A stretch of 36,646 nt of DNA, taken from Serratia marcescens (GTDB taxonomy: Bacteria > Pseudomonadota > Gammaproteobacteria > Enterobacterales > Enterobacteriaceae). Shown here piece after piece: positions 18,521 to 36,219 of the stretch (positions are counted from its first letter, which is position 1; every line of letters starts with the position of its first letter). The notes under the pieces were generated by a model. That model was not told where the DNA came from. It did not search any database and saw only the letters and a program-made list of their open reading frames with translations. The position numbers and the translations under genes were made by a program. The stretch spans positions 1-36,646 of the forward strand of contig JADMXW010000035.1 of NCBI GenBank assembly GCA_015548865.1. The letters are read 5' to 3'.

Positions 18521-20980
18521 TCATGCTTGGGCTGAAGTGTCCAAAACAACCTCGTTTGTCACCTCATCTGGCACCGTTTCAACCACCGTCGCCTGCACCT
18601 CAGTCTCTGGCATCTGTACGCGTACCGAGATGAACGTATCATGCGGGATGTCTATCGGGTCACCGTTTGCATAGCCCTCTATCTCATTACGCGCAAAACC
18701 GGGAGCCTCTGGATGGGGTCGGTGATAAGTCCGAATAACGATAGAGCCATCCGGGTTTATCTTCTCGCTTCCCTCATCGCCGCCATAATCCACCCACAGA
18801 CGAGGCAGCTTATTGCGGCACATCGGCACATCGATACCGCCCTCATCACCGCCCCAGGCGCGATCCGCATTCAGGCCCAAACAGCCGGAAATACGATACA
18901 CGCCTTCGCTCACGCGTTCGGTGGTGATGCCTTCGGCCTCGCTGGTGAGCTCGCTGGTGCCGTCAGCAAAGAGTTTTACGACAGGGGATGCGGTTTTCCA
19001 GAAGCCGTTTGAGTCGGCTACGGCGTTAATCCCACTGATAACGGCGTTATAAATACCAGTACCTGATGATGGATATGAAAATCTAATTGCTTGTTGATTC
19101 GTTGATTGACCGCTAGCAGATCTCCTGATGAAATCAAAAGTATTAGCTCCGTATTGGACGTCTACAACCCTACCTACCTCACCAGCGGTATTTGAAGTGT
19201 TTTCAAATACTAAACGTGGATTTGGTTTAGATATAGTCACGTCTTGGCTAAACGTTTTTGCACCAGAAAACGTCTCTGCACGCTGCAAAGTCGCCAAATT
19301 ATAGTTATTCCACCTAAAGACGGATGCCATTATATCAAGCGCACCGGCACCTACTGTGGATGAACCACCCGTTGCAATAATTCTGGCATCATAGTCGTTA
19401 TCATTCCCTGATGAATGAAAATCAATAAATGATGATGATGAGCCATCTACTCGACCAATCTCTAAGCCAGTATTACCAGAACCAGCTCTAATTGATACCG
19501 ACTGAAATATCTTACTGCCATCAATGTATTGCCCTGGACCGCTAAGCGCTATCTCATTCCAATAGAATGTTGTTGCATTCATGGTTCTTAAAAACCACGC
19601 TTTTGATGACGTAATGTTTGTGACCAGGAAGATCCCTATGTTTTGGTCAGCGTTATGCCTACTTATCACGGTGTAACTGTAACTATCATCGGCAGCAAAA
19701 TTACTGGTTGGCAAATAAGCGGGGTCGGAGCCACTCAGTTGTGACGCAACCAAAACCACCTGACCATGTACAGCCGCAAGAATTTGCCCGACTGTGGCGC
19801 TGGTCAGAATTATTCGATCAGTCATGGTTCTCTTGCCAATCTGAGTTACCGAGTCCTCAAGGCCTCCGTTAAAGGTCTTTTTGCCTGTGATGGTTTGAGC
19901 GGACACATCGTTGATTAGCTGCGTCCAGCCCTGCCAGACTCCCGACGCCTTCCGCCGTAACCTCAGAAAATCCTGGCCTGCGTCAAGAGCTAGTTCAGCG
20001 CCCCAATTGGCATTGGAGCCGAAGAAAATGCCGTAACCCGCTATCGTGGTTGGCGCGCCCGTCGTATTTGCGGCATAGCTAAAGAAACCATTTCGCGTTG
20101 CATCATTCAGATTACCGATGCCGTAGGCCGTCTCCTGAGCCCCCAAGCCAAAGGCCTCGTTGATGAGCATCGCTCCAGCTGCTGTATCTACTTTGCTCGA
20201 CTGTTTTACAAGGTTTTGGTCCGTCCAAAATTCATAGGTTCTGGTTGTCGTACCGCCGTTATTACCGGCAACAGCCCTCACTCCCGAACCAGTTACACCA
20301 CCAAATCCTATGGTCAGCGCGGCATATGTATCACCGGCCCGGAGCAATACACCAGGACTGTATTGTTTGGAGTAAGCAGTGGCAGTGTCGTTTCTAAAAA
20401 TCCTGCTGCGATTTCCTAGTGTTCTTACCCAGGTAAGAAAATCGGCATCATTCATCTGAAGTGTTTGCCCCACGCCTCCCCATCCCCAGCCGCCGTTCAA
20501 CATTAGAACGCCAGGGGTTGGGTCATATGCATCTGCCTGTTTGGTACCGGTCACCTTCCCATCCAGAGCAGTATCCCAGGCCTTCTGCGAGCGAACGGTA
20601 ACGCTCTGACCGTCCGGCGTGGTCAGCGTAACATTTCCCGTTCCGGTTAATATCTGCTGCCAACCTGATAGCTGTTGCTGGTAATAAGCAAGCGTTGAAG
20701 CAAATTCATGCGCAAACTGCTCAATAGAAACAGCCGGTGAAGTTGGAATAGCATAGGCTTTGCCCGTGCCCGTTGCGCCAGTATATGCAGATACCAGCGT
20801 TAATTGTGTATCGGATTGCACAGACTCAATTTCATAAACCTGAACAGTGCCAGCAGCGGGCAATAATAACATCCGTCCTGCTGATACACCGTTTAATGAA
20901 TTAGTGAATTGTGTTCCTGTGCCCGTAATGATTTTGCTGCCGTTAGTGGCAGCGATAGTTCCGATTTTGTACCAAGACAT
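18521..20980 (-). CDS. Side tail fibre / receptor-binding protein
   Basis: 819 residues from ATG 20980 (MSWYKIGTIAATNGSK), a common phage fibre N-terminus, preceded by GGA at 8 bases; 9 further codons upstream are open but have no good site. The middle contains fibre repeats such as TITGKKTFNG and TFSGAKTFSQDV. The last about 130 residues (GVYRISGCLG to the end, with GGDEGGIDVP) resemble a conserved enteric phage fibre C-terminal module. No separate fibre chaperone gene follows. Base composition falls sharply over about 19040-19700 (residues about 427-647), suggesting an exchanged receptor-binding segment. It probably sets target specificity. Confidence 0.85.
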   Translation of the reverse strand: MSWYKIGTIAATNGSKIITGTGTQFTNSLNGVSAGRMLLLPAAGTVQVYEIESVQSDTQLTLVSAYTGATGTGKAYAIPTSPAVSIEQFAHEFASTLAYYQQQLSGWQQILTGTGNVTLTTPDGQSVTVRSQKAWDTALDGKVTGTKQADAYDPTPGVLMLNGGWGWGGVGQTLQMNDADFLTWVRTLGNRSRIFRNDTATAYSKQYSPGVLLRAGDTYAALTIGFGGVTGSGVRAVAGNNGGTTTRTYEFWTDQNLVKQSSKVDTAAGAMLINEAFGLGAQETAYGIGNLNDATRNGFFSYAANTTGAPTTIAGYGIFFGSNANWGAELALDAGQDFLRLRRKASGVWQGWTQLINDVSAQTITGKKTFNGGLEDSVTQIGKRTMTDRIILTSATVGQILAAVHGQVVLVASQLSGSDPAYLPTSNFAADDSYSYTVISRHNADQNIGIFLVTNITSSKAWFLRTMNATTFYWNEIALSGPGQYIDGSKIFQSVSIRAGSGNTGLEIGRVDGSSSSFIDFHSSGNDNDYDARIIATGGSSTVGAGALDIMASVFRWNNYNLATLQRAETFSGAKTFSQDVTISKPNPRLVFENTSNTAGEVGRVVDVQYGANTFDFIRRSASGQSTNQQAIRFSYPSSGTGIYNAVISGINAVADSNGFWKTASPVVKLFADGTSELTSEAEGITTERVSEGVYRISGCLGLNADRAWGGDEGGIDVPMCRNKLPRLWVDYGGDEGSEKINPDGSIVIRTYHRPHPEAPGFARNEIEGYANGDPIDIPHDTFISVRVQMPETEVQATVVETVPDEVTNEVVLDTSAQA

Positions 20981-20994
20981 ATTTTTTTCCACGT

Positions 20995-21022
20995 AAAAAA
21001 ACCGCAATACCCGGCTTATAGT
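20995..21022 (-). terminator. Terminator-like hairpin upstream of the tail fibre gene
   Basis: Minus strand: AAGCCG / CGGTTT stem (with one G-U pair), loop of 7, followed by T7. It lies within 40 bases upstream of the fibre start and so would cut fibre expression unless polymerase is antiterminated. Confidence 0.45.
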
Positions 21023-21109
21023 GTTTAGATTGTGAACGCCGCTAAATCGATACGATGATAATGTACTTTAATAAATATACGCGGCAGTCATGTTTGAACG
21101 GACACACTA

Positions 21110-21733
21110 TCAATTGTATACATCCGTGTAGATAAAGTGCGTTTGATTCAGGTAAGAGAATCCACCCGGACCTGACGCGCCCCCGGCGATCTGCAATCGA
21201 TAGTTAATAAGTTTGTTGCCTGATGCACAAAAGTAGTAATTGAATATATCGAAACCACCAATTTGAGTGTTGGGACCGGTTGTTTGACCTGAGAACCTGG
21301 GCGTTATAGCCACGGGGCGACCCATATCAATGATTGAGTTTGTTGATATATCAATATTTACTTGGTGCATTTCCAGCGGAAGCATATCAGCAGAATAAAT
21401 GAGATCGCCCACCGCGTTGAACATGTATATTCCATACCCTCCCCTTCTGACGGCCATATTTCCAAATGCATATACCGTAGCTTGAGAAACTCCTATGCTG
21501 CGCTCCACCGTCAAGCAGTGAGACCCGTTTCTCACCTCCGGTATGTATCTAACTAGGCCGTCTGTGTTATGCGAAACGAAGAATATAACTTCTTTCTCAC
21601 CTGGTATGTCGGTTGAGAAAACTGTACCCGGCGATGTGGAAATGACACCTTTGTTTATCAGATTCAGGGGAGTGAAATCAGGACTTAGCCATAAACTCCC
21701 ATCCTCTTTCAATATCTGCATCCCGTAAGTCAT
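21110..21733 (-). CDS. Phage tail-associated protein, DUF6453-like
   Basis: 207 residues from ATG 21733 (MTYGMQILKEDGSLWLSPDF). The N-terminal YGxxI....G pattern resembles the DUF6453 family found beside tail tip genes; that family call is from memory. The start overlaps the previous stop (TGATG), so translation is probably coupled. Function is unknown; a tip- or fibre-associated structural role is likely from position between J and the fibre. Confidence 0.6.
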   Translation of the reverse strand: MTYGMQILKEDGSLWLSPDFTPLNLINKGVISTSPGTVFSTDIPGEKEVIFFVSHNTDGLVRYIPEVRNGSHCLTVERSIGVSQATVYAFGNMAVRRGGYGIYMFNAVGDLIYSADMLPLEMHQVNIDISTNSIIDMGRPVAITPRFSGQTTGPNTQIGGFDIFNYYFCASGNKLINYRLQIAGGASGPGGFSYLNQTHFIYTDVYN

Positions 21734-22020
21734 CACTGCCCCCAATAGAAATAAATCGGCCCGCCCCGGTTCCGACTCCAACTTACTGCCCCCCCTGACA
21801 CGTAGAACTGAGCCCCCCCCGTTGATCCCGAAAGAATGGACACAGATGACTCCATGTATCTCAGAGTCTTTCCCTGTGGCGGGGTGCCAAAGTTGCGGCT
21901 TCCGCTCTCCCCTGTTGCAGCCTCGATGAAGAATGAGGGAGATAATAAACCTGTAATATCAACGCCACTGGCACTGAAAATTCTAATACCGTAGGCCACA
22001 GTTGATATCCTTGTATTCAT
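21733..22020 (-). CDS. Small tail-associated protein, possible DUF6453 paralogue
   Basis: 95 residues. The N-terminus STVAYGIRIFSASGVDI resembles that of the following gene (MTYGMQILKEDGS), so the pair may be tandem paralogues. No signal peptide. It overlaps the preceding lipoprotein gene by 38 bases and the following gene by one base. A weak ribosome site suggests coupled translation. Function unknown. Confidence 0.5.
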   Translation of the reverse strand: MNTRISTVAYGIRIFSASGVDITGLLSPSFFIEAATGESGSRNFGTPPQGKTLRYMESSVSILSGSTGGAQFYVSGGAVSWSRNRGGPIYFYWGQ

Positions 22021-22261
22021 TAGGCTTAAGCCAGCCAGATCCGACGAAATTTATGTGCTGCCCCTTTTGTGGGTGAACATCCATCTGCCCAAAACGGTTA
22101 ATTCGTATTTTATCCACCCTTAATTTGTAGATCCCATTAATTGGGAACGTGTGGAGCGAGTAAGCTACCTCACACTCTTTATTCGTAACCACGCCACCAT
22201 CTAAAGAACATCCAGACAAGCTAATACTCACCAATAAGCACACGACGAATATTGTTCGCAT
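21983..22261 (-). CDS. Small lipoprotein directly downstream of J
   Basis: 92 residues. The signal peptide MRTIFVVCLLVSISLSGC ends in a clear lipobox with Cys18 as the lipidated residue; about 74 mature residues follow, with Cys29 and Cys88. The start at 22261 lies inside the end of J (41-base overlap) and has GAGG at 6 bases. In lambdoid phages, small envelope proteins after J (such as Cor of phi80 and N15) block re-adsorption. A similar self-protection role is possible here but rests only on position and the lipobox. Confidence 0.6.
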   Translation of the reverse strand: MRTIFVVCLLVSISLSGCSLDGGVVTNKECEVAYSLHTFPINGIYKLRVDKIRINRFGQMDVHPQKGQHINFVGSGWLKPNEYKDINCGLRY

Positions 22262-25200
22262 CGTAAACCTCTATTTTTTTGTTAGATTGTGACATGCGCC
22301 CTCCACCAGAAGTCGCACCGTTATTTTCAATCTGCCCTGTGGTGAAATTGAAATAAAGCCCTCGTTGACCGGCAATATAGTTATCGGACTGTAAACTATC
22401 AGTTAGCTTTGCTCGTGTTATCGTTGCATCACCAATAACAGCAGAGTTGATAATCACCTGATTGCCCTGCGTGGTGAATATTAATTGCGGATTTCCCCCA
22501 GCCGCATTCATGATCGAGAATCGGTCTTGCAGGAATATGGTATTCGACTGCATTCCCTGATCCGTGTCCTCAATGCTCTGCGTCATACCCGCCACATATT
22601 GCCGCCCATTTGCATCAACTTTGATGCGCAGTGTGCGATAGGCCGACAACTTTGCATCTGTGCCATTCACAATGCTGCTGATATCGCTGATTTCCGTTGT
22701 GACGCCATTAACCGTTGCGGTTAACTGGCTGATTTGCGTTCCCTGAGCAGTAATGGCATTACCCTGCTGTGTGACCGTTGTGGAAACAGCATTAACGCTT
22801 TGTACTGCACTGTTCGCCGTAGATTGTGCAGCCGCAGCTGCACTCGCTGCTGCATTCGCCGCCACCTGCGCATCAGTTGCGGCTTTATCCGTAGCAACCT
22901 GCCATGCCGTACCGTTCCAGCGCATCGGCGTGTTGGCGTTGTTCGCTGTGTTCATCCACAAGTTCTGTGCCAGCCGTTTATCTGCACCAGGTGTGGTTGC
23001 AGACCAGATAATCTCCCCTTTGTTTCCTGCCGCTGTTGCCGCTGCATTTGCCGCGCTTTGGGCTGCAGTCGCCGCTGACTGAGCATTATCCGCAGTTTGC
23101 TGGGTTGTACCGACAGACGCGGTGATCTGTGTTATCTGCGTCCCCTGCGATGTGATGGTGTTGCCCTGCTGCGTAACCTTTGTATCCAGTGCAGAAACGG
23201 CATTTGCAGCACCGGTGGCTGTAGACTGCGCAGCATTTGCCGCTGACTGAGCATTGTCGGCAGTTTGCTGGGCTGTACCGACCGATGAACTAAGCTGAGT
23301 AATAGCACTACTTTGGGATTCAAGCTGATCACCTTGCTGTGATACTTTGGTTTCCAGCCCGCCAACCGCTGTAGAAATCCCCTCAATCTCACCCTGCGCA
23401 TCTGTCATCTGACTATTTAGCATGGATATTTGCTGAGATGTGGTTGAATCCAGCGTTGCCACCGTCTGCTGTAACTGCGTCAGATTGCTGTTAGTTGTGC
23501 CTATACTTGACTGCATTTCCAGCATCGCAATCGTTCTAGCTTCGACCTCATTTGCAATAACAACACGCGTTTCTGTTATTTCTGCCGCCCTGTCGCCGTT
23601 CTGCGCACGCCAGCGCCGTGTTTCAGCATCATTAGCCAGGCTGTTTTGTATAATGGCTTTTGCCTGCTCAATACTGTTCAGCATGCCGTCAGCAATCTTG
23701 CCCGCCTGATCAGAAAGTTGCTGAGTGTTTACCTCGATCCCACCAACCAGAGATTTCCAGGCATCGGTTTCAACGATTTCCCCAACAATAACGTCTGTAA
23801 TATCACTCACGTCCGTGCTGGATTCCCCGCGTATCCAGTTCGTCCACGGTCCCTGATTGCCGGACCGGTCAACAATACGGGCACGGTAGAAGAACTCCTG
23901 GCCTACACTGAGCCCCATTTGCTGATAGGTGCGCGTGGGGTAAGCCACATCAGCCAGTAGCAACGCATTCTGGCCGTCGCTCGTCGGGGAATATTGAATC
24001 TCAGTTTTTAGGGTATCGCCTGTGTCAGCGGGGAAACTCCAGTCAAGCTGGATGCCAAAAACGAGCGGCGTTGTGATGAAGCTGGCCAGCGCAGGCGGGT
24101 TATCCGCTTTGCCTGTAAGCGTGGTTTCCTGCGCGTTGGCCCACAGGCTGGAAATCTCCGTGGCATTGATGGCGCGCACGCGCGCTTGGTAACGTCCGGC
24201 ATAAATACCCGGCACCTCAACGCTTTGTGCCGAGGTGCGTGCCGCACTGATCCAATTGCCGTTATCACGCCGCCATTGAATTTCATAGGCAATGGCGCTG
24301 TCCGCTTTATCCCAGGTAATGCGCAGAGTAGTGATATTGATACCTTGCTCAATGCGGTTATCACCACTGATAACCACATTGGTGGGTGCAGGCTGTACCG
24401 AAGGCGGAACCTGGCTTATTGGGCGAGATTCAATGCGTGCGCCGGTATCGATTTTGGCGAATTTATCAGGATCAAATTCGATGGCCGTGATGTCAAATGA
24501 GGCGCTATCCTCCCCCTCTTTCACACCAATGACGCGATACAATTGCAGCGCCAAATCATTAGCATCTACCGCCCACACCGACTCCGGCACGGGCGTTTCG
24601 CTATACGCCGTAGTAACGGTAACAACCTTGTCGTTCACCGCCTCAATGGTGCGTCCTTCTGCTTTCCCACTCGGCAGGTTGAGAATCAGGCGTTCACCGA
24701 TTGCCGCAGAAGAAACACGGTCAAGCGTGATGTTACGTCCGTCAACCACACTGATACGCCCACCTAATGGACGCCCGGCCAGCAATGTATCAGCGATACC
24801 AACAATAGTGCCGGGAATCGGAATATCACCGTCCAGCCCCATGGTGTAAGAAACGGTGCGATCGGCATCGTTGGTATGCAAAATCCATTTACCGCGCCGG
24901 ATAGCTTCCGTCTGGCGCGTACAGCCAATCGCGGTCACATCCGCCTGTTTAATGCCGTAGCGTCGCACCAGCTTGTTATCCGAAACGGCTTCCACTGCAT
25001 CTTGATAAGCGTTATCAGGATCGGACCACGCCACCATCGCCGTGCTGTAGTGTGTCTTGCTACTGGCGTTACTGTAGGTAAAGCGCCCGTCGCGCACATT
25101 GGCACGGGTTACCACGTAATCCATATCACGCGGCATATCGGACAACACGTTCATCTGACTGTTTGCCCAAAACGAAGAACCGCGAAAGATCGCCGCCAGA

Positions 25201-26252
25201 TCGTTCAGTACCGTCCATGCATCCTCTTGCGATTGAATGTACACATCGCACAAAAAACGGGGTTCCGTTCCGCTGCCGCCATGACCATCCGGCACAAGCT
25301 GATCGCAGTACTGGGCAATCTGGTACAGCGTCCATTTCGACAACACCAGATTGGTGGCTTTGATCCGCTCCCCAAGGCCAAAACGTTCCGAAAGCTGAAT
25401 ATCGTAGTAAACCCAAGCTGGGTTGTTGGAGAACGCCCACTTGAAAGTGCCATCCCAACTGCCCGAGTAGCGACGAGTCTGTGCATCATAGTTGGTGGGC
25501 ACACGGATAATACGCCCATCCGGCTCGCAAGAGATGACCGGAATATTCTGGAACTGCTGCGCGTCAAACTGCATCAGCAACAGCGCCGTTTCCGGATAGC
25601 GCAGCTTGGCATCGATCACTTCGGTAATGGCTTCTATCGCCATCTTGTCGGCAATACGATTACTGGTGGAATTGGGCGTAATGCGGCGTACGCGAATCTG
25701 CCAGCCGGTTGATGCGCTGGGCAAATCGATACGGTGGCTGCGCTCATATTGTGTGGTGGTTTTACCGTCAATCGCCGTTTTCAGCACTTCACGATAGCTG
25801 CCGCCATCCGTTGCAATATCAATGGCATATTCAATACGGTAGCCGCCCGCATCACCATTATCATACTGCTGTTGCAGCGCTGCCCATGAGAAGCGTATCC
25901 GCACCGCTGAGAGATGAATGTTGGTCAGCGAACGTATCCACGGCGTTTTACTGGTGAGCTCGCTACTTACCGTAATATCGTTTTCTACACCAGGAAAGCC
26001 TGGGATATAGCTTTGGTCTGGCGTACCGGGACGAAACGCCCACGACACACCGGAGAAATTGGCATTGCCGTTACTGTCATTGAGCGGCGTACCGTCAAGA
26101 AAAATACGCGAGCCATCCAAATTCCCAGCAAATTCACCTTCCCCCAATGCCAACAGTATTTTGGCGTAGGAGGTGGATTGAATGGAATCCGGCGACTCAA
26201 CAGGAACGCGCGCGTTCGCGCTGCCGCCTTTGCTGCCTTTGATCGCTGTCAT
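22221..26252 (-). CDS. Tail tip attachment protein J (central fibre)
   Basis: 1343 residues, the size class of lambda J (about 1130) with a longer coiled region. The N-terminal two-thirds have J signatures such as DGTPLNDSNG, SERFGLGERI, DVYIQSQEDAWTVLNDLAAIFRG and NLPSGKAEGRTI. Fibronectin-III-like segments follow (about 620-800). Then comes a long Ala/Gln-rich helical repeat stretch (about 850-1190, with QQTADNAQSAA copies), and a C-terminal DUF1983-like domain around SIEDTDQGMQSNTIFLQDRF. It forms the tail tip and contacts the receptor. It is the last of the lambda-order genes U to J and is intact. Confidence 0.93.
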   Translation of the reverse strand: MTAIKGSKGGSANARVPVESPDSIQSTSYAKILLALGEGEFAGNLDGSRIFLDGTPLNDSNGNANFSGVSWAFRPGTPDQSYIPGFPGVENDITVSSELTSKTPWIRSLTNIHLSAVRIRFSWAALQQQYDNGDAGGYRIEYAIDIATDGGSYREVLKTAIDGKTTTQYERSHRIDLPSASTGWQIRVRRITPNSTSNRIADKMAIEAITEVIDAKLRYPETALLLMQFDAQQFQNIPVISCEPDGRIIRVPTNYDAQTRRYSGSWDGTFKWAFSNNPAWVYYDIQLSERFGLGERIKATNLVLSKWTLYQIAQYCDQLVPDGHGGSGTEPRFLCDVYIQSQEDAWTVLNDLAAIFRGSSFWANSQMNVLSDMPRDMDYVVTRANVRDGRFTYSNASSKTHYSTAMVAWSDPDNAYQDAVEAVSDNKLVRRYGIKQADVTAIGCTRQTEAIRRGKWILHTNDADRTVSYTMGLDGDIPIPGTIVGIADTLLAGRPLGGRISVVDGRNITLDRVSSAAIGERLILNLPSGKAEGRTIEAVNDKVVTVTTAYSETPVPESVWAVDANDLALQLYRVIGVKEGEDSASFDITAIEFDPDKFAKIDTGARIESRPISQVPPSVQPAPTNVVISGDNRIEQGINITTLRITWDKADSAIAYEIQWRRDNGNWISAARTSAQSVEVPGIYAGRYQARVRAINATEISSLWANAQETTLTGKADNPPALASFITTPLVFGIQLDWSFPADTGDTLKTEIQYSPTSDGQNALLLADVAYPTRTYQQMGLSVGQEFFYRARIVDRSGNQGPWTNWIRGESSTDVSDITDVIVGEIVETDAWKSLVGGIEVNTQQLSDQAGKIADGMLNSIEQAKAIIQNSLANDAETRRWRAQNGDRAAEITETRVVIANEVEARTIAMLEMQSSIGTTNSNLTQLQQTVATLDSTTSQQISMLNSQMTDAQGEIEGISTAVGGLETKVSQQGDQLESQSSAITQLSSSVGTAQQTADNAQSAANAAQSTATGAANAVSALDTKVTQQGNTITSQGTQITQITASVGTTQQTADNAQSAATAAQSAANAAATAAGNKGEIIWSATTPGADKRLAQNLWMNTANNANTPMRWNGTAWQVATDKAATDAQVAANAAASAAAAAQSTANSAVQSVNAVSTTVTQQGNAITAQGTQISQLTATVNGVTTEISDISSIVNGTDAKLSAYRTLRIKVDANGRQYVAGMTQSIEDTDQGMQSNTIFLQDRFSIMNAAGGNPQLIFTTQGNQVIINSAVIGDATITRAKLTDSLQSDNYIAGQRGLYFNFTTGQIENNGATSGGGRMSQSNKKIEVYDANNIRRVLIGEY

Positions 26253-26264
26253 GGGTACCCCATT

Positions 26265-26292: not shown

Positions 26293-26299
26293 ATCGGCA

Positions 26300-28759: not shown

Positions 28760-28774
28760 CGGTTCTCCAGAGAT

Positions 28775-28797: not shown

Positions 28798-28823
28798 AGA
28801 GTGTTTACGACGATATGGGGACG

Positions 28824-29171
28824 TTACACGCTATACCACTGAACGAAGGTTGCAGTAATAACGCCCTGAACGTTGCCAGCCGGAGCAAACTTTATCGAGT
28901 CCTCTACTACGCGATAGAGCCCCGGCTTTTCATGTGGTGGTGTCCATTGGAATGATTTTTTGCGATGACGCCGCAAGAAATCCCGAATTTCTACAGCCAT
29001 GTCAAGCTTGCCGCGAAAAGCGTAGGAAAAGGTGATGGTTTCCCCGTTTATCCCTGCGCCAGACAGTTGAGTGTAACCATCACCGAACTGCACTTTACGT
29101 ACCGTTTCGCTGTATTGCACCTCAGGCTGGTTACCGATTTGCAACGGCCAGTGAAATGTTTCTATTGCCAT
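28824..29171 (-). CDS. Minor tail protein M
   Basis: 115 residues, the length of lambda gpM (109). Family features: an N-terminal FHWPLQIGNQPEV, then VRKVQFGDGYTQLSGAGING, and FLRRHRKKSFQWTPP. Forms the hub at the distal tail end. Start and H stop share a base (TAATG), so expression is coupled with the tape measure gene. Confidence 0.92.
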   Translation of the reverse strand: MAIETFHWPLQIGNQPEVQYSETVRKVQFGDGYTQLSGAGINGETITFSYAFRGKLDMAVEIRDFLRRHRKKSFQWTPPHEKPGLYRVVEDSIKFAPAGNVQGVITATFVQWYSV

Positions 29172-30511
29172 TAGCTTCTCCGTCCTTTCATTGCCGTGCT
29201 TAACATACGCCCCTGCCCCATTTCTCGGGTTAGCAGCAATTTAAACCGCTGATCGACAAAGCTGCCGATTTCACTGCCAAATTGCTCCAACCCAGCCGAT
29301 GAGGTCTGAGAGATGCGACCATCGCTGGCGATATTGATACTGACCTGGGGAGCCGCATTGCCACTCACGCTGCCCACGGCCCGCACTCCCAGTACACCGT
29401 TGGCATTACGGGTCAGCGGCATAATGGCTTCCGGCCCAGCCTCGCCCATTAGTCCGGCGCCTTTGGCAAAGGCAAACAGCGTGGGGCGATCGACCACCTG
29501 CCCTGAATAGGCCGATAGGCTAGGTGAGGTATAAACACCGCCTTTGGCATTGGCGGTAACCCCAAACGCGCCCATTAACGCATTCACTCCTTGCACCAGT
29601 GCCGACTTCACTGCGATTTCTGCCAACATACCCAACACCGATTCGGCGAAAGAGGAGAAATTGAGTTTCCCGGTCCGCACAAAATTCGTCACGCTATTAT
29701 CTAACTGTTGGAATGCTGCCTCTCCCCCAGCCTGGATGATGGAATAGGAATCCAGCGCGCTCTCTGAATATTTCCCCCAGGATTCACTCAAGCCATTTAC
29801 CCAGGTTTTACCGATATTTTTATTCGGCTCATCGGCATCCTGATTGTTATTATTTTTCTGGGTATCATTGCGTGATGCCGCAGTGGTTGCCTGATTTAAA
29901 GATGTGCTCTCCTTATTTTTATCCTTATCTTTATCCTTGGTTGTTGTCGAAATATCGAAAAAACCAAGAATGGCATTAACCCCTTGGACCATTGATGCCC
30001 TGAGCGCGACGTTCGCTAACATACTCAGCATGGATTCAGCAAAGTTCGAGAGGTTCAGTTTGCCGGTTTTCACAAAACGCGTTAATCCCGCGTCCAGTGT
30101 TTTAAACACCGCCTCACTGCCGGTTTTCACCTGGGTATAGGTATCTGAAGCCACTTTCGCGTATTCGCTCCATGACTCAATCAGGCCGTCCCGCCAGGTT
30201 TTTACATCTGTTTTATCTTTCGATTGATCGGTGCCAATGCCATTCAACCCTGCCAGCATAAAACCACGGGTATCGTTAAAATCAGCGCTCCCTTGCGCCA
30301 TCACGCGTTGTGCCGACCAGGTGCCCGGCTGTGCTAGCACTTCACTCGCTTTCAACGCAGCACTCTGCTGGGAGACTAATTGAGAAAAACTCTGCGTCGC
30401 CTGGGTAACGACATTTCCCAGTGACAATAAATCCTGCTGCACGCGCAGCACGCTGCTGTTTAGCAACACAGCGTCAAAACTTAAAGCCTGTTCATTGGTT
30501 GTCTGGGCCAT
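29171..30511 (-). CDS. Tail tape measure protein H, short, with duplicated C-terminal domain
   Basis: 446 residues from ATG 30511, which has GGAGG at 8 bases. Lambda H has 853 residues, so the long central helical part is missing. Two about 81-residue segments, 105-185 (WRDGLIESWSEYAK...) and 236-316 (WVNGLSESWGKYSE...), are clearly homologous to each other and to the lambda H C-terminal (Tape_meas_lam_C) region. They are joined by a charged KDKDKDKNKE / Asn-rich linker. The C-terminus has GGVYTSPSLSAYSG and GEAGPEAIMPL, typical of tape measures. Frame intact, no stop. It should specify an unusually short tail. Confidence 0.9.
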   Translation of the reverse strand: MAQTTNEQALSFDAVLLNSSVLRVQQDLLSLGNVVTQATQSFSQLVSQQSAALKASEVLAQPGTWSAQRVMAQGSADFNDTRGFMLAGLNGIGTDQSKDKTDVKTWRDGLIESWSEYAKVASDTYTQVKTGSEAVFKTLDAGLTRFVKTGKLNLSNFAESMLSMLANVALRASMVQGVNAILGFFDISTTTKDKDKDKNKESTSLNQATTAASRNDTQKNNNNQDADEPNKNIGKTWVNGLSESWGKYSESALDSYSIIQAGGEAAFQQLDNSVTNFVRTGKLNFSSFAESVLGMLAEIAVKSALVQGVNALMGAFGVTANAKGGVYTSPSLSAYSGQVVDRPTLFAFAKGAGLMGEAGPEAIMPLTRNANGVLGVRAVGSVSGNAAPQVSINIASDGRISQTSSAGLEQFGSEIGSFVDQRFKLLLTREMGQGRMLSTAMKGRRS

Positions 30512-31204
30512 AACGAACCCCTCCAAATAATCCTTCGCCTATTGCCATCAGTTCATCGTCGCTCATCGTTTCAGACTCAACAGCTTGCTGTAACAAGCTG
30601 AGTTGCTGTAACGGGATGTCTTGATGACCCGTCAACGCCAGCATCGTGGCACGCAGGGCGCAACACTCTGCATCCAGCAGGACATCGGAAAAGTAGTTCT
30701 CCTGATAGAAATCAAACCATTCCGAGAATTCACTGGAAGAGAGTTCAGACAACATCGTGCGCCAGTCATGACGCCGGAACTCCCGAGCCAGACGCATCGC
30801 AAAACGCACCTGTACGGCTAAGACTTTCCCGGCGTGTTGGGCGTGTTGTCACCACTGGATTCCTCATTGGTATTCTCAGGGGCAATGCCGCTGAGTTGCT
30901 GAACAAGCAAGGCAGCGTCATTAATCAGGCGCGGTGGCCAGTCGTTAAGCACCTGATTGAAAATATCATCCAGAGCGCGCTCCCGATCTCGTTGCCACAG
31001 CGAGCGGGATACCAGCCAGGCGTGTAACTTGATGGTCAGGCTGCCAAAAATGGCCATTTTCTTGGCCTCAGGGATAGCGTCAGGAATGTTCTCCAAAGCG
31101 CTCATGTGTTCAACAATGGCTTCGAGATATTCGATGCGCTGCAACCCTGACAGCTCAGACAGCACCACCTGATTAGGACCGAAAGGCTCGGTTTTCAGGT
31201 ACAT
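30492..31204 (-). CDS. G-T tail assembly chaperone made by -1 frameshift
   Basis: The T frame (30492-30809) opens at a GTG without a clear ribosome site and is expressed as a G-T fusion. At 30830-30824 the G frame reads G GGA AAG, identical to the lambda slippery heptamer. Slipping back one base gives GTC TTA GCC GTA CAG and then the T frame, about 237 residues in all. In lambda, G and GT are needed at a fixed ratio as chaperones of the tape measure and tail tube; T carries the tube-recruiting part. The T stop overlaps the H start. Confidence 0.88.
30818..31204 (-). CDS. Tail assembly chaperone G
   Basis: 128 residues, N-terminus MYLKTEPFGPNQVVLSELSGLQRIEYL, plainly related to lambda gpG. 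The gene ends GGA AAG TCT TAG within the slippery site. AAGGAGA lies 8 bases before ATG 31204. It coats the tape measure during assembly and is not in the mature tail. The gap to V is unusually long (236 bases) and holds a terminator and a dispersed repeat. Confidence 0.92.
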   Translation of the reverse strand: MYLKTEPFGPNQVVLSELSGLQRIEYLEAIVEHMSALENIPDAIPEAKKMAIFGSLTIKLHAWLVSRSLWQRDRERALDDIFNQVLNDWPPRLINDAALLVQQLSGIAPENTNEESSGDNTPNTPGKS

Positions 31205-31281
31205 ATATTCTCCTTGATTTCATTTTTACCGAATAAGCCCGCGTATGCAGGCACACGTTGCTGGCAAACGGCCTTACTCCC

Positions 31282-31373
31282 ACCGTCATTCCCGCAAAGG
31301 TGGGAATCTTTTGCAGGTGAAACGCATTTCTTCTGGCAGAGATCCCTAGCTTTCGCCGAGGATGACGAGGTAA
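31282..31373 (-). repeat. Dispersed repeat copy inside the tail operon
   Basis: Read on the minus strand, this segment (CGTCATCCTCGGCGAAAGCT, GGGATCTCTGCCAGAA, then CTGCAA, AAGATTCCC) matches the plus-strand copy at 36297-36385 over most of its length. It lies between V and G, a place with no gene. The same sequence both inside and outside the tail module indicates a chromosomal dispersed element that entered the operon. Confidence 0.75.
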
Positions 31374-31414
31374 AGTGACGTTGTTATCAGCCTGAGTCAG
31401 CTTACGCGGGGCAT

Positions 31415-31442
31415 AAAAAAAGCAGCGTTACACGCTGCTTTT
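31415..31442 (-). terminator. Intrinsic terminator after the tail tube gene V
   Basis: Minus strand: AAGCAGCG / CGCTGCTT with a 5-base loop followed by a run of T. It begins at the V stop codon and is strong by eye. It would favour V (needed in many copies) over the downstream genes unless Q lets polymerase through. Confidence 0.8.
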
Positions 31443-31917
31443 AGGGGGTTACGGCAGCGGGAGTTTCTTCCGCCAGCACCGGCTTGCCGGTATTCGTCAC
31501 CTTCGCGGTGCGGGTGATCACCTCCTTAACAGGAATCGATTTACCTAACGCACTGACCCAGCCCTTAAACACATCGACAACGCCATTGGCATACTTGATT
31601 TTGTAGCCACGCACGGCACCGGACGTAAACCAATCAACCAATTCCTGTTGCCCTGGGTCACCCGCTTTCCACGCCAGAGTGAAACTGGTGTCTCCTGCTG
31701 ATTTAATACCCTGCGCCGTATCACTCCACCCTGCATTTTCACCATCCAGATAGGTGTTATCATAGGATTCCGCCGTCATCTCGCCCGGCGTCAGTTCTTT
31801 GATCTGCGCCAGACGGGTCCAACCGCTGTCGCTCGTTGGGCTCGCATAAGGGTCACCGGTGCCGGTAAAAACCCAAAGCGTTGTTCCTGCACCTTTAATG
31901 GCTTCTGTTGTAGACAT
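31441..31917 (-). CDS. Major tail tube protein V (short form)
   Basis: 158 residues, N-terminus [21 protein letters not shown], with the tube-fold region [27 protein letters not shown]. Lambda V has 246 residues and a C-terminal Ig-like domain; here the protein stops after the tube domain, so the decoration domain is absent. It forms the stacked hexamer rings of the flexible tail. It follows U directly (7 bases) and precedes a terminator. Confidence 0.9.
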
Positions 31918-31924
31918 AATGGCC

Positions 31925-32335
31925 TCACTGATAATAAGTTATTGAAAATTCGAGGTCCGCTGACCTCCAAATGCTCCCTTCTTCATCGTGTCGGTAGTCA
32001 TACCGCTGCGTTGAGAAGGTTTCCGTACTCTCCTTCAGCACTGAAACTGACATCAGCACGGGAGAAATCTCTTGCGCCATCTTTTCATCCAGCGTCGTAT
32101 CTGGGCTGTCCTCCTTTTCGAAAAGCTCAATGTGCAGACTGGCTTGCCACAGCGCTTCATCCAGAGCGTTTTCCACGGGTTGCGCATCACTGATGTATAC
32201 CGCGATGGCAGGCAGGCTGTCTGGCGTTAAGACGACGGGGCGGCCGTCAAGAAAAGTGGTGTTTTCGGTGATGGCGGCGCGCAGCGCAGCCAAAACGGCA
32301 GCACGTAGCTGCATATGCTTCATCATGATTGGCAT
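31925..32335 (-). CDS. Tail terminator protein U
   Basis: 136 residues, related to lambda gp[49 protein letters not shown] and [23 protein letters not shown]. It caps the tail tube and stops growth once the tape length is reached. ATG 32335 has GGA at 4 bases; ATGs at 32326 and 32323 (MKHMQLRAA) are alternative starts. It follows Rz by 57 bases; no head or head-tail connector gene lies between. Confidence 0.88.
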
Positions 32336-32392
32336 GTCATCCGTTGTTGATTGTCGGTAGGGTTAACGCGCTGGCACTTGGCGGACAGCGGG

Positions 32393-32920
32393 TTACTTTC
32401 TGTCGGCTTGTGCCGCACGTATCGCATCAAGCTGGCTGTTGGCCTGTTCCAGTGCCGCCAACAGTGGCTCAATCCAGTAAACGGCCTGGGCGTAGGTCAA
32501 TCGGCAGCCGGCGGTAACGGCACCTCGACGGGTTGCGTTAGCATCTGGGGCAACGCTATGCACGGTGCGGGCACGTAGACGGTGCGCGTCGTCGAGCAAC
32601 CGGCCAGAAACAGTATCAGGCACGCATTGACGCCCCACGGGATCGCCTTTAACGATCGTGCGGTAAATAATCTGTTTTTCATCAGAGTCTGCCTTGATAG
32701 AGAGGCCTCGCTGATAGGTATCGGCGGCTATCAGGTTTAGGCGCTGAAAGGTAAAAACCTGTTGCGCAATAATGGCTTGTTGCTGTACCTGGCGCACCTC
32801 ACTTGACTGCTTGTCGCGAGCAGCAACGTCAGCGTCCCAACGAACCCCTTGTATATACCAACCTGCGCTAAAAGCGGCAGTGAGTGCACAGCCAGTAAGT
32901 AATAGGTTTATTTGCATCAT
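32393..32920 (-). CDS. Rz-like inner-membrane spanin (i-spanin)
   Basis: 175 residues from ATG 32920, which has AGGAG at 8 bases and lies just after the endolysin stop. It has an N-terminal membrane anchor (about 3-22) and then a long helical periplasmic domain rich in Gln and Arg. The Rz1 gene is nested in it in another frame. Together they bridge inner and outer membranes and fuse them at the end of lysis. The frame is open about 30 codons further upstream inside the endolysin gene, but without support. Confidence 0.82.
   Translation of the reverse strand: MMQINLLLTGCALTAAFSAGWYIQGVRWDADVAARDKQSSEVRQVQQQAIIAQQVFTFQRLNLIAADTYQRGLSIKADSDEKQIIYRTIVKGDPVGRQCVPDTVSGRLLDDAHRLRARTVHSVAPDANATRRGAVTAGCRLTYAQAVYWIEPLLAALEQANSQLDAIRAAQADRK
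32497..32682 (-). CDS. Rz1-like outer-membrane spanin lipoprotein (nested in Rz)
   Basis: 61 residues entirely inside Rz in a different frame. Signal peptide, lipobox LAGC, then a short mature peptide of about 33 residues rich in proline (VYVPAPC, QPVEVPLPPAAD). Nested position, lipobox and proline content together are the hallmark of an o-spanin. Confidence 0.85.
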   Translation of the reverse strand: MKNRLFTARSLKAIPWGVNACLILFLAGCSTTRTVYVPAPCIALPQMLTQPVEVPLPPAAD

Positions 32921-32925
32921 AGGGG

Positions 32926-33483
32926 CTACTCCTGCACGGCCAGACACAGCGCCATCTCTTTGGTTCGGCGGGCAACCAAACCGGGAAGCACCTCCTGTCC
33001 AGCGTATACCCAACGGGGGAGCTGGTTACACGCAGCGATGTACGATCCTGCAATCAGGTAACGGTACAGCGTGGACATCAAAAACGTCGAACAGCCAACA
33101 TTGAACACAAAGCTGCCTACCCCATCAAAGACACTTTGTGGTAAGCGCATGCCCAATTTGCGTTCAACGTTCTGTTCAAGGCAGTTTTGTGCATCTAACT
33201 GATCCTCAGCAAACCAACGCGCAATCTGCCGATCATCCGCCTGAGTCACGGTCCCTGAGATACGCCGCGTATGACCAATACCCTGAGTCCTAATACGCGC
33301 CGGGCATAGATAAGCATCACGACGACATCCCTCCGCATTCCCCATCACCTCCATCGCCTCTTGGCTGAAACGCAAGGCATTACCTTGTTGTGAACGATAG
33401 CTATCGCTATTACTCAGCACCATGGCAACAATCACATTGACTGAGCAAAACGCAGCAATGGCTATCTTGCGCCTACTCATCAT
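32926..33483 (-). CDS. SAR endolysin (lysozyme), P1 Lyz-like
   Basis: 185 residues. The N-terminal signal-arrest-release segment (about 7-25, [19 protein letters not shown]) is weakly hydrophobic and not cleaved. The T4-lysozyme-type active site is E51-x8-C60-x5-T66. Cysteines C13 (in the SAR segment), C53 and C60 reproduce the P1 Lyz arrangement, in which a disulfide blocks the catalytic Cys until the SAR segment leaves the membrane. It exports itself by Sec and needs only a pinholin to become active. The start overlaps the holin stop by 11 bases. Confidence 0.9.
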
Positions 33484-33691
33484 TTATTCCCTCTTCTCTG
33501 CGCCGGTCTTGCTTGATTTTGAAAAACAAGTTCACCAGGAAAGTCAGCAGACCAAACAGCAAGCTTCCCATCACGCCAATGGCTGTCCATTGGTTTGGAG
33601 AAACAGCATCAAGTAACTGAAGCATCCAGTAGCTGCCGCTGGCCCCCGAAGCGCCATAGGAGATGCCCGTCGTCAATTTATACATACGCAT
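33473..33691 (-). CDS. S21-type pinholin with dual start
   Basis: 72 residues (70 from the second Met). Very like phage 21 [36 protein letters not shown], then a second membrane segment (about 37-57), and a charged tail [11 protein letters not shown]. Two membrane segments, class II. The start MRM offers two Met codons; GGCGG serves the first (7 bases) and GAGG the second (8 bases). In phage 21 the longer form is the antiholin. It depolarises the membrane and frees the SAR endolysin. Confidence 0.92.
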
Positions 33692-33825
33692 AACCTCACC
33701 GCCGTCGTGCGGGGTGCCTACAGTGATAAGAACAAAAAGCGGAATTTAGGGTATATGTGGAATAAGTTTCAAAAAAAGACTTAAAAAAACCCAAAGCATT
33801 ATTAACATTGTATATTCGTAAAAAC

Positions 33826-33856
33826 AAAAAGGCCTCGCGTAAGCGAAGCCTTTTTT
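33826..33856. terminator. Intrinsic terminator ahead of the lysis genes (tR'-like)
   Basis: Minus strand: GGCTTCGC / GCGAGGCC with loop TTAC and one G-T pair, followed by TTTTTGTTTT. The plus strand also ends in T6 but has a mismatch. It lies between Q and the holin, as lambda tR' does, and is the expected barrier that Q relieves. Confidence 0.8.
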
Positions 33857-33884
33857 ATAGTTTCGGTAAATTAACGATTTTTAA

Positions 33885-33923
33885 CAGACTACATTACCAT
33901 TTGGAATTCCACAACATATTTAA
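33885..33923 (-). repeat. Repeat copy 1 of the Q 3' end
   Basis: Contains the palindrome TGGAATTCCA (33902-33911) and, read on the minus strand, GTTGTGGAATTCCAAATGG then AATGTAGTCTG. It matches the end of the Q gene (34793-34832) closely, including the stop codon. Confidence 0.75.
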
Positions 33924-33980
33924 TTTTTATTTAAAACATAAAACAGCACTTCATGACACCGAGCCAAACAACCATTTTTG

Positions 33981-34020
33981 CAGAGTAAATAGCTTTTTGG
34001 AATTCCACAACCTTTTTTAA
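33981..34020 (-). repeat. Repeat copy 2 of the Q 3' end
   Basis: Palindrome TGGAATTCCA at 33998-34007; minus strand reads AAAAAAGGTTGTGGAATTCC then AAAAAGC. It would encode KKVVEFQKA, as does the Q C-terminus, but the stop is lost and only a short tail follows. Confidence 0.7.
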
Positions 34021-34089
34021 GATGATGTGATAAAAATAAAGTTGTATCAGCATTCTGTTTACGCCCGGTTATTTTTCAACACCAGGTAA

Positions 34090-34491
34090 TTATTTCGCTG
34101 GGCCAGTATATTGCTGCGTAATGGGCGTTCTATCCCATTCCCAATTTGATTTCGTTTGTTGCTGCCAGCCATTATCCCACATGCAATCATGAAACGAACT
34201 GCTCCGGCTGCCGCCGTTGACATCCGTGACATAGCTTTGTAATTCCTCAACTTCATAGGTTCTATACTTTTTGCCACCACACCACCTTTTATAATGGCAA
34301 GGCTCAGTGACTGTACGGTAGTTGGTACGATATGCCACTTCATTGTGAACCGGGAATCTCTGTTCAGCGTTAACACGACACAGGGATCTCGACGTAATAT
34401 GGTCAGTCGGGTTATCACGAATTTTCACCCACCGCGTAGAACACCCAGAAAGCAACACTGGAACCAACATGAATAACAGCAGCGTCTTCAT
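34090..34491 (-). CDS. Small lipoprotein between Q and the lysis genes
   Basis: 133 residues from ATG 34491 (6 bases after GAGG); ATG 34494 and a start at 34533 are also possible. The signal peptide MKTLLLFMLVPVLLSGC ends in a clear lipobox. The mature part has Cys pairs (EPCHYKRWCGG, SFHDCMWDNG) and is rich in Arg and Tyr. I do not recognise the family. It is expressed ahead of the main terminator, so it could be made before lysis. An envelope role such as protection against the locus's own tails is possible but untested. Confidence 0.6.
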   Translation of the reverse strand: MKTLLLFMLVPVLLSGCSTRWVKIRDNPTDHITSRSLCRVNAEQRFPVHNEVAYRTNYRTVTEPCHYKRWCGGKKYRTYEVEELQSYVTDVNGGSRSSSFHDCMWDNGWQQQTKSNWEWDRTPITQQYTGPAK

Positions 34492-34533
34492 CATATGCCT
34501 CATTAAGGGACGAATTGGCAACATTACTTTCAT

Positions 34534-34796
34534 TTTTTGCGATAAGACTAATCTGGAATATTCCTGATTTGATGTATGGGTAGGTTCTTGTGAAGTGAGT
34601 TATCTCCTAAAGGCATGTTCTCTAGTGAACGATACTACACGGACAAATACACCTTTCTTTGAGAAAAATCAAAACATGAATGCACATTATTCAACATATC
34701 CATTAATTAGGACAATTGTCCTGTTGCGGAAACGAAACTGGTCATAAGAAATTAATTTCGCATTAGGAAAAGGATGAAATAATCATTTTTATCAGA
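34534..34796 (-). promoter_or_regulatory. Candidate late-promoter region with palindromes
   Basis: No gene. Contains the perfect 14-base palindrome AGGACAATTGTCCT (34709-34722), a 12-base palindrome GAAATTAATTTC (34748-34759) and the imperfect GTTCTCTAGTGAAC (34617-34630). On the minus strand TTGTCC within the first palindrome, followed 17 bases later by GAATAA, could be a promoter whose -35 overlaps an operator. This lies directly after Q, where a late promoter is expected. Confidence 0.4.
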
Positions 34797-35231
34797 CTAC
34801 ATTGCCTTTTGGAATTCCACCACTTTTTTTATTTTCGGCGTATAAATCAGCTCTTTTTGGCATTCAAGATCGATATCCAGCTTGATATCCATCATGCTCA
34901 GACAGCCATCAATAAATCCCTCAGCCATTTGCAGCTGTTTTAATACCAGCGTATGTGAAATGCCCAATTTAGTGCCAATCGCCCTCACCGGTAAGCCAAG
35001 CACGTAGTGCCACTCCAATAGCACATGCAGATAGGGATCGCGCTTTTTCAAGCATGCCATCGCGCCGTTAATCGCCAACCCATCGTCATCACAACACGAC
35101 GGACGCGAACGCTGACTTGAAGGCAGCAGACCGCGAAAACCCGCCGCAACCGATGAGTAATACAACCCTTGTTCACTATGAGACGCCCATGCGCCATAAC
35201 GTTCAAGCACCTTTTGGATATCACGAATCAT
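34797..35231 (-). CDS. Phage antitermination protein Q (PF06530-like)
   Basis: 144 residues: MIRDIQKVLERYGAWASHSE at the start, then SCCDDDGLAINGAMACLKKRDPYL, and a helix-turn-helix-like segment LPVRAIGTKLGISHTLVLKQLQ (about 80-101). This is the antiterminator family of lambdoid late control: it modifies RNA polymerase so that it ignores downstream terminators. ATG 35231 follows AGGTGGCGAG. It is the first gene of the leftward transcript that starts under repressor control; no replication gene intervenes. Confidence 0.88.
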   Translation of the reverse strand: MIRDIQKVLERYGAWASHSEQGLYYSSVAAGFRGLLPSSQRSRPSCCDDDGLAINGAMACLKKRDPYLHVLLEWHYVLGLPVRAIGTKLGISHTLVLKQLQMAEGFIDGCLSMMDIKLDIDLECQKELIYTPKIKKVVEFQKAM

Positions 35232-35263
35232 CTCGCCACCTTTGTTGTTTCTATACCGTTATC

Positions 35264-35333
35264 TGACAAGACCATTGGGTTCTTGTCACACCGTCCCCTG
35301 GAGTAACAAAAGAGAGGCAGTAACACACTGCCG
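35264..35333 (-). other. Two hairpins in the Q leader
   Basis: Perfect inverted repeats TGACAAGA/TCTTGTCA (35264-35271 and 35281-35288) and GGCAGT/ACTGCC (35317-35322 and 35328-35333) lie in the 170-base untranslated leader of Q. Neither has a T-run. They may bind a regulator or modulate Q expression; no function is known. Confidence 0.4.
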
Positions 35334-35401
35334 CTGGAAAGCTATTGATTTAGTTGATGACTAGCGTCTGTTACTCACGCCCAGTTCGTCTTGTAAATAC
35401 A

Positions 35402-35430
35402 ATAATACCTTTCGCTATTGGTGATAGCAA
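35402..35430 (-). promoter_or_regulatory. Leftward promoter for Q and late genes
   Basis: Minus strand: -35 TTGCTA (35430-35425), exact 17-base spacer, -10 TATTAT (35407-35402). Both elements are covered by the 35-base inverted repeat that is the likely repressor operator. Confidence 0.75.
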
Positions 35431-35438
35431 AAGGTATT
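35404..35438. promoter_or_regulatory. Repressor operator, long inverted repeat
   Basis: AATACCTTTCGCTAT (35404-35418), spacer TGGTG, ATAGCAAAAGGTATT (35424-35438): 14 of 15 positions pair. It spans the leftward promoter. The inner half-sites GCTAT/ATAGC recur in a second palindrome at 35459-35472. Confidence 0.75.
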
Positions 35439-35448
35439 GGATTCTCAC

Positions 35449-35475
35449 TTGAAATGCAATAGCAAATGCTATAAA
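35449..35475 (+). promoter_or_regulatory. Repressor promoter with second operator
   Basis: TTGAAA (35449-35454) and TATAAA (35470-35475) with a short 15-base spacer. The 14-base palindrome ATAGCAAATGCTAT (35459-35472) overlaps the spacer and -10, which fits autoregulation. The predicted transcript start is within a few bases of the ATG and no ribosome site is visible, so the mRNA may be leaderless, as for lambda cI from PRM. Confidence 0.5.
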
Positions 35476-35484
35476 GTCATCGAC

Positions 35485-36219
35485 ATGAAAACAATGAACA
35501 CTTTGGCAGAACGGCTTAACCATGCTATGTCGCTGACGGGAATGACGCAGGGGCAATTGGCGCGTGCCGTTAACATGGCCCAGCCGACAATCTGGCGCTT
35601 GACCTCCGGTCAGGCGAAAGGAACCTCGCGTATCATTGATATCGCTGATGCTCTAGGCGTACGCCCAGAATGGCTGGCAAATGGCGATGAGCCTATGCGA
35701 GCACAAGCGGTAGCACCTTATGATTCACGCTCCAACATTCCGCCGGAATCCCAGTGGGGAACGGTTGACGTGTGGGATAGCCATACCCCTTTGCGGGATG
35801 ATGAAGTGGAAGTCCCGTTTCTGAAAGACATTGAATTCGCCTGTGGGACTGGGCGCATCATGAATGAAGATCATAACGGGTTTAAACTGCGCTTTTCCAA
35901 ATCGACCTTGCGCCGTGTCGGCGCAAATTCCGATGGCTCTGGCGTGCTCTGTTTCCCGGCCAAGGGTGACAGCATGGAACCCTTTATTCCCGATGGCACA
36001 ACCGTTGCCGTCAACACGAATGATAAGCGCATTATTGATGGCAAGATCTACGCTATCAGCCAAAACGGTTGGAACCGCATCAAGTTGCTATATCAGGTTG
36101 GGCCGAACACGGTAAGCATCCGTAGCTACAATAACGCCGAGCATCCCGTTGAAGAAAAATCCCTCAGCGAAGTCGATATTATTGGGCGCGTATTCTGGTG
36201 GGCGGTACTGGATTACTGA
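35485..36219 (+). CDS. S24/LexA-type self-cleaving phage repressor (CI-like)
   Basis: 244 residues from ATG 35485. The N-terminal helix-turn-helix (about 22-41, TQGQLARAVNMAQPTIWRLT) binds operators. The C-terminal S24 peptidase domain has the catalytic pair S163 (GDSMEPFIPDG) and K200 (WNRIK), and the cleavage site is probably C120-G121 (EFACGTG). RecA-stimulated self-cleavage after DNA damage would release the divergent Q promoter. ATG 35494 is an alternative; the upstream extension to 35437 lies in the operators and is rejected. No integrase gene is beside it. Confidence 0.92.
   Translation: MKTMNTLAERLNHAMSLTGMTQGQLARAVNMAQPTIWRLTSGQAKGTSRIIDIADALGVRPEWLANGDEPMRAQAVAPYDSRSNIPPESQWGTVDVWDSHTPLRDDEVEVPFLKDIEFACGTGRIMNEDHNGFKLRFSKSTLRRVGANSDGSGVLCFPAKGDSMEPFIPDGTTVAVNTNDKRIIDGKIYAISQNGWNRIKLLYQVGPNTVSIRSYNNAEHPVEEKSLSEVDIIGRVFWWAVLDY

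Follow-up and report, generated by a model that had tools for sequence, protein, structure and literature searches.

The stretch analysed here, called the window, is one whole contig (JADMXW010000035.1, 36646 bases) of a 5.39 Mb genome that belongs to Candidatus (Ca.) Symbiopectobacterium, a symbiont genus adjoining the soft-rot genera. At 18521-36219 it carries an intact, headless, lambda-like locus for a flexible tail together with lysis and control genes. The tail block comprises a fibre gene, three small genes, J, a gene for 104 amino acids (aa) and I-K-L-M-H-T-G-V-U. Beyond U follow Rz with nested Rz1, endolysin, holin, a lipoprotein-like gene and Q, and then a divergent repressor gene. 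Proteins were assigned by 20 Pfam and 10 PHROG scans; Pfam gave matches for 15 of the 20 locus proteins and none for 5. The features are, in window positions:

18521-21007, minus strand: side tail fibre, 828 aa, with variable middle (Pfam Phage_tail_C_2, PHROG tail fibre, identity profile)
21110-22261, minus strand: three small genes (223, 95 and 92 aa) between J and fibre (PHROG 425, PHROG 557; the third without match)
22221-26252, minus strand: J, tip attachment protein, 1343 aa (Pfam)
26300-26614, minus strand: 104-aa gene between I and J (PHROG 27544, unknown function)
26691-27419, minus strand: I, tail assembly (Pfam)
27274-28002, minus strand: K, JAB/NlpC-P60 (Pfam)
28007-28759, minus strand: L, minor tail protein (Pfam)
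28824-29171, minus strand: M, minor tail protein (Pfam)
29171-30526, minus strand: H, short tape measure, 451 aa (Pfam, PHROG)
30492-30809, minus strand: T, via -1 frameshift from G (Pfam; slippery heptamer 21 bases before the T start)
30818-31204, minus strand: G, tail assembly chaperone (Pfam)
31441-31917, minus strand: V, tube protein, 158 aa (Pfam, PHROG)
31925-32335, minus strand: U, tail terminator (Pfam)
32393-33013, minus strand: Rz spanin (PHROG), with nested Rz1 at ~32497-32682 (by translation)
32926-33483, minus strand: endolysin (Pfam Phage_lysozyme)
33473-33691, minus strand: P21-type holin (Pfam)
33826-33855, minus strand: terminator-like stem before holin (scan; kept in 4 of 4 aligned copies)
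33900-33915, minus strand: Q-associated element of 16 base pairs (bp), copy 1
33996-34011, minus strand: Q-associated 16-bp element, copy 2
34090-34533, minus strand: lipoprotein-like gene, 147 aa (no phage relative found)
34808-34823, minus strand: Q-associated 16-bp element, copy 3, within the 3' end of Q
34797-35231, minus strand: Q, late antiterminator (Pfam)
35402-35430, minus strand: candidate promoter of Q, overlapping operators (scan; site number not above chance)
35405-35418, no strand: candidate operator 1
35424-35437, no strand: candidate operator 2
35459-35472, no strand: candidate operator 3, inside the candidate repressor promoter 35449-35477
35437-36219, plus strand: CI/LexA-like repressor, helix-turn-helix (HTH) plus Peptidase_S24 (Pfam; 434 repressor match)

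All tail, lysis and control frames are open in the window copy over ~17.7 kb. An earlier sequence-only reading of this DNA had described U-V-G-T-H-M-L-K-I-J, the fibre, holin, endolysin, Rz/Rz1, Q and the repressor as intact, and Pfam and PHROG bear this out; its statement that no tail, lysis or control gene is broken holds for the window copy and not for three sister copies, which carry lesions. Five genomes of the genus were compared, that of the window (G000) and G001-G004, of which G003 is 87% complete. A slippery heptamer at G-T is used in lambda, and three of the four locus copies have one at the end of G, with T in the -1 frame; this pattern was not found in a lambda-like prophage of G004. 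Two of the three small genes between J and the fibre are of the moron or outer-membrane type (PHROG 425, 557), and relatives of the three occur, at ~41% identity, in G001 only.

Families of head, packaging and replication proteins are not among the Pfam matches of the 20 locus proteins, and the intergenic gaps total 1742 bases. With no gap above 398 bases there is no room for head genes, in agreement with the claim that packaging, capsid, head-joining and replication genes are missing. U lies 57 bases after Rz, as had been stated, and the junction measures 55-57 bases with similar sequence in 4 of 4 copies, which fits a single loss event before the species split. The G004 prophage (G004:C10:442000-480000; L015, L016) serves as positive control. 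It is the unreduced counterpart of the locus, has a tape measure frame of 964 aa and encodes between Rz and U a large terminase, portal, capsid/protease, cement protein and Z. A lambda-family portal gene was not found in the window genome and is present in two of the five genus genomes (G002, G004).

The locus thus holds a full siphovirus-type tail set (tube, tape measure, chaperone, terminator, tip, fibre) and lysis genes for release, and by the gap list and the flank up to cysH in relatives it has no capsid, portal, terminase, head-joining, replication or integrase gene. A functional lambdoid prophage would have terminase, portal and capsid genes where only the 57-base gap is found, and an R-type tailocin would have a contractile sheath gene, for which there is no Pfam match among the 20 locus proteins. 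The only sheath match in the window genome lies on contig C12. We rejected it as the mark of a second, contractile tailocin, because the gene is part of a P2-like prophage that also has terminase, portal, capsid and scaffold genes. This prophage (G000:C12:44000-66000; L166, L168) contains capsid, terminase, portal, sheath and fibre genes; its portal and terminase, and its sheath-tube-tape block, are oriented opposite to the baseplate genes.

The element sits between cysH and cysG in all five genus genomes, contiguously in three. G001, G002 and G004 each have cysH-repressor-Q-lipoprotein-lysis-U to J-fibre-cysG on one contig and are equally headless, so the search in relatives that the sequence-only reading had proposed returned the same headless gene set at the cysG locus rather than full prophages. 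In G003, cysI-cysH-repressor-Q and the lipoprotein start lie on one contig and fibre-cysG on another, and the middle part was not seen. The window genome has cysH on a separate contig (C11), 256 bases from its end; the last 51 bases of C11 are the window end in reverse complement, and other contigs share the same 51 bases. The window contig ends 427 bases past the repressor in an interspersed repeat (36260-36646) with 44 matches in the window genome (40 of 109 candidates scored). The distance from repressor to cysH is 70 bases in G002 and G004, 207 in G001 and ~185 in G003. A full prophage extending past the window, with integrase or head genes beyond it, was rejected, because cysH follows the repressor in all four other genus genomes.

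The repressor is 94-100% identical across the five genomes, while outside the genus the best of the matches listed (392 genomes) is a partial one at 69%, followed by 68%. U is 88-89% identical in three of the four other genus genomes and at most 50% in the other matches listed (295 genomes). Neither repressor nor Q lies within the ~1.5 kb flank beside outgroup cysH (0 of 25 loci); the distance from cysH to the beginning of cysG is 300-370 bases in 3 of these 25 and 1.3-1.4 kb in another 3. Relatives of K in named genomes occupy 29 loci, two of which have repressor, Q and cys genes; K was matched in isolate NZEC151 and in Ca. Symbiopectobacterium endolongispinus, the species of G001. Head genes were recognised near only two other loci of the 29, many of which are short. 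IMG/VR yielded only two weak loci with K relatives, and at the DNA level the locus matched phage records over a single stretch of 80 bases in two records of one phage. A second contig of Ca. S. endolongispinus (L087) carries a further tail locus of the K-L-I-J type with K 76% identical, and repressor, Q and cys genes were not found in its available stretch. Members of Symbiopectobacterium have been reported from nematodes and insects, and the three isolates recovered from potatoes in New Zealand produced small lesions or none (PMC10019282). The earlier placement of the DNA in soft-rot bacteria is therefore to be corrected to a genus of symbionts that adjoins them (PMC10019282).

Selection was examined among the window, G002 and G004, leaving out G001 and G003, with U, V, G, T, H, M, L and K pooled and with J, the fibre, and I with the 104-aa gene treated apart. 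Where a gene was broken in G002 or G004, the comparison used just the open frame that matched best, and the three small genes were excluded. The pooled ratio of non-synonymous to synonymous substitution rates (dN/dS) is 0.094 for window-G004 (1604 codons), 0.086 for window-G002 (1550) and 0.097 for G004-G002 (1511), with bootstrap limits of 0.069-0.125 across all pairs. The corresponding synonymous rates (dS) are 0.365, 0.426 and 0.229, that is 80-84% of those of cysG, D, N, H and I (0.437, 0.512 and 0.284). Lysis and control genes have dN/dS values of 0.092-0.101, cys genes of 0.033-0.053. Because U-K dN/dS is low and dS is near that of the cys genes, the headless element looks vertically inherited under purifying selection after head loss, weaker than that on the cys genes. 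Higher dS values were obtained for the fibre (1.0-1.3) and J (0.57-0.85). Against G002 and G004, window fibre identity is 73-93% over residues 1-180 (one G004 bin 43%), 15-55% at 181-660 and 79-96% thereafter; J is 86-99% identical over 800 residues and 16-79% beyond. We read the variation in the fibre middle and the J C-terminus as swapping of target-recognition segments. The endolysin (32926-33483) has dS values of 0.86 and 1.37 against the sisters, above those of its neighbours, which suggests exchange of this gene.

The control region resembles a stripped lambda switch, consisting of repressor, three operators, Q, three Q-associated elements and a terminator. The HTH part of the repressor has the 434 repressor as best match among solved structures (E 1.4e-5), and the C-terminal part is a Peptidase_S24 domain (Pfam). 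The stretch that separates repressor and Q contains three imperfect palindromes of 14 bp, the candidate operators, whose spacings of 35 and 19 are identical in all five genus genomes; operator-like sites with up to 3 mismatches occur at 13 other window positions. An S24-domain repressor with conserved candidate operators is the sequence signature behind the predicted inducibility by DNA damage. Both candidate promoters, that of Q and that of the repressor, overlap the operators. As the promoter scan gave 7 sites against 6.3 expected by chance and the terminator scan 3 against 3.3, these candidates rest on conservation and overlap. Rfam gave no match in 18246-36646. The leader upstream of the holin forms a more stable fold than shuffled sequences do (z -3.57), much of which is accounted for by the terminator stem.

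The 16-bp element is probably what this family of Q proteins recognises, by analogy with phage 21, for which the accessible part of the source describes a Q binding element inside the late promoter (PMC6606751). It occurs three times per genome in four of the five genus genomes (none in G003), only within the locus and on the Q strand: once in the Q 3' end and twice between the lipoprotein gene and the terminator-like stem. In IMG/VR, 105 loci contain the element, and 38 of these encode a Q homologue (56-68% identical), always on the same strand. The element lies 22-25 bases before the Q end in 17 of them and 322-374 bases after it in 21. The reversed control pattern has 29 loci, none with Q. 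The 38 loci represent 11 sequence contexts, one with 18 members, and hence are not independent; the remaining 67 have no Q in the available stretch. No solved structure matched Q by sequence.

The 147-aa lipoprotein-like protein has no relative in 50,697 phage records, and relatives at 22-46% identity are found in chromosomes of the family; at two such loci the neighbouring frames include what we take to be htpG (both) and adk (one). A role in immunity or self-protection is a guess. Direct repeats of 59 bases (33869-33927 and 34777-34835, 83% alike) flank the gene, one of them at the Q 3' end, and a third copy lies at 33965-34023 (63%); the arrangement looks as if the gene had arrived as a cassette.

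We propose that the locus is a domesticated headless lambda-like tail locus, i.e. an F-type tailocin, and put the probability of this at about 80%. The earlier reading to the same effect is strengthened by the same headless set at the same site in the sister genomes and by purifying selection on the tail genes. The locus, which would stem from a lambda-like virus, probably serves as a weapon against related bacteria. The sequence shows the gene content, the absence of head genes, the shared site, selection and conserved candidate regulatory sites; induction, particle formation and killing are predicted. In this scheme, a lambdoid prophage beside cysG would have lost its integrase, replication, packaging and head genes, Z included, before the known species split, the remainder being kept by selection. 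The 434-like repressor would occupy the three operators over the Q promoter and its own. DNA damage would lead to repressor self-cleavage and synthesis of Q, which would load at its recognition elements and allow RNA polymerase to pass the terminator that precedes the holin, so that lysis and tail genes are expressed together. The G and G-T chaperones would coat the 451-aa tape measure, and V would assemble into a short flexible tube with U as its cap, a tip of H-M-L-K-I-J and the fibre. Holin, endolysin and Rz/Rz1 would lyse the producer cell, releasing the tails. J and the fibre would pick the target, whose death would presumably come through a membrane channel. With slightly less than even confidence we further suggest an undescribed F-type tailocin lineage that would be the first from Enterobacterales and would go back to a single domestication in the ancestor of the symbiont genus. 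It would be run by a minimal lambda switch, with an SOS-cleavable repressor directly on Q and three stacked Q-recognition elements, and the lipoprotein behind its own Q element would be a candidate self-protection factor.

Several observations weigh against the tailocin interpretation. The window copy is the only one seen to be intact throughout. In G002, M and I are interrupted, the endolysin is split over two frames and U is shortened; L is frameshifted in G004, and G001 has many lesions and an altered slippery heptamer in G. U was not found in G003, whose genome is 87% complete and in which no middle part of the locus was seen. The link to cysH in the window genome crosses a contig break within the repeat, and U-K dN/dS is 1.8-2.8 times that of the cys genes. 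Given the lesions, the element is dispensable in some lineages. We dropped assembly noise as the cause of the G001 lesions, because the 2,679 pseudogenes reported for S. endolongispinus in the accessible text make decay the simpler reading (PMC13345370). In our reading, the lesions mean that host-bound lineages have recently been losing an element on which selection had acted before.

The lesions in three sister copies and the erosion of the genus, as seen in those pseudogenes, also favour the strongest alternative, a decaying and functionless prophage remnant that is intact here by chance. We consider it unlikely, given retention at one site in five of five genomes, a U-K dN/dS near 0.09 after head loss, the ~17.7 kb fully open in the window copy and the conserved operators and Q elements. 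Much less probable is a tail factory for another use, such as tails lent to head-making satellites or prophages. Heads are possible in the same cells in G002 and G004, which have lambda-family portal genes elsewhere, and U is retained, but the window genome yielded no such portal, Z, which is needed for infectious lambda tails, is gone from the locus, and fibre and J diversify as target choice predicts. Tails aimed at an insect, nematode or plant host would suit a genus that lives with insects and nematodes (PMC10019282); this is more improbable still, as the tip genes are all of the lambda kind and the scans named no eukaryote-directed payload. Least credible are head genes hidden in the gap between the window contig and the cysH contig, as the window contig does end in the interspersed repeat but repressor and cysH are only 70-207 bases apart in the four other genomes, and the contig C11, on which cysH lies 256 bases from the end, has its last 51 bases in common with the window contig, although other contigs contain that stretch as well.

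The tailocin reading carries several consequences. F-type tailocins are few, and the portion available of one study calls rhizoviticin a rare example besides F-pyocin and monocin (PMC10811719). Their killing mechanism is called unknown in the accessible part of another (PMC11762384), and an F-type tailocin made almost wholly of lambda-family parts would allow it to be studied with the genetic tools of lambda. Copies in the genus range from intact to broken, in strains that differ in host dependence, so that the point at which a bacterial weapon ceases to be worth its cost could be examined. For a large family of phage antiterminators, the 16-bp element provides a recognition site that can be tested.

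Among known systems, carotovoricin is contractile. It and dickeyocin are tailocins of neighbouring genera. No sheath gene was found in the locus. Partly available sources describe dickeyocin P2D1 as a P2-like, contractile tailocin of soft-rot Pectobacteriaceae (PMC10719855) and carotovoricin as a tailocin of a neighbouring genus, with fibre recombination in the title (PMC13195805). The expectation that a flexible tailocin would be new there agrees with the literature searched, seen in part, in which none is described from Enterobacterales (including PMC12090994, PMC9205054, PMC13280938, PMC13303436, PMC6266700), although older electron-microscopy reports may exist. The locus shares the tail gene order of lambda, and V is 70-73% identical to that of phi80 and 70% to those of N15 and HK225; unlike these lambdoid phages it is without head, packaging, replication and integrase genes. 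Its tape measure is about half as long as that of the sister prophage. Tape measures scale at 0.15 nm per residue, so that 451 aa suggest a tail of ~70 nm. Rhizoviticin of Allorhizobium vitis is a headless, inducible flexible tailocin; according to the accessible text it differs in coming from an Alphaproteobacterium, in its chimeric locus of two subregions and in its tails of 164 nm (PMC10811719). Host and descent set monocin apart, which comes from a Gram-positive bacterium and an unrelated phage lineage. The present locus probably goes back to an independent domestication. Listeria monocytogenes is the producer of monocin, named an F-type tailocin in the same partly available study (PMC10811719).

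The closest comparison is with the F-type pyocins of Pseudomonas aeruginosa. Pyocins are controlled by PrtN/PrtR, and in the narrow sense of a Pseudomonas locus under these regulators the present element is no F-pyocin, since host, site and regulators differ. The likeness drawn by the sequence-only reading holds for the headless flexible-tail gene set and fails for control, which here is by repressor and Q. F-pyocins are described in the accessible part of the source as headless flexible tails related to phage lambda (PMC13195805). The locus is predicted to share these traits with them and differs in bacterial order, in its site between cysH and cysG and in its repressor-Q control.

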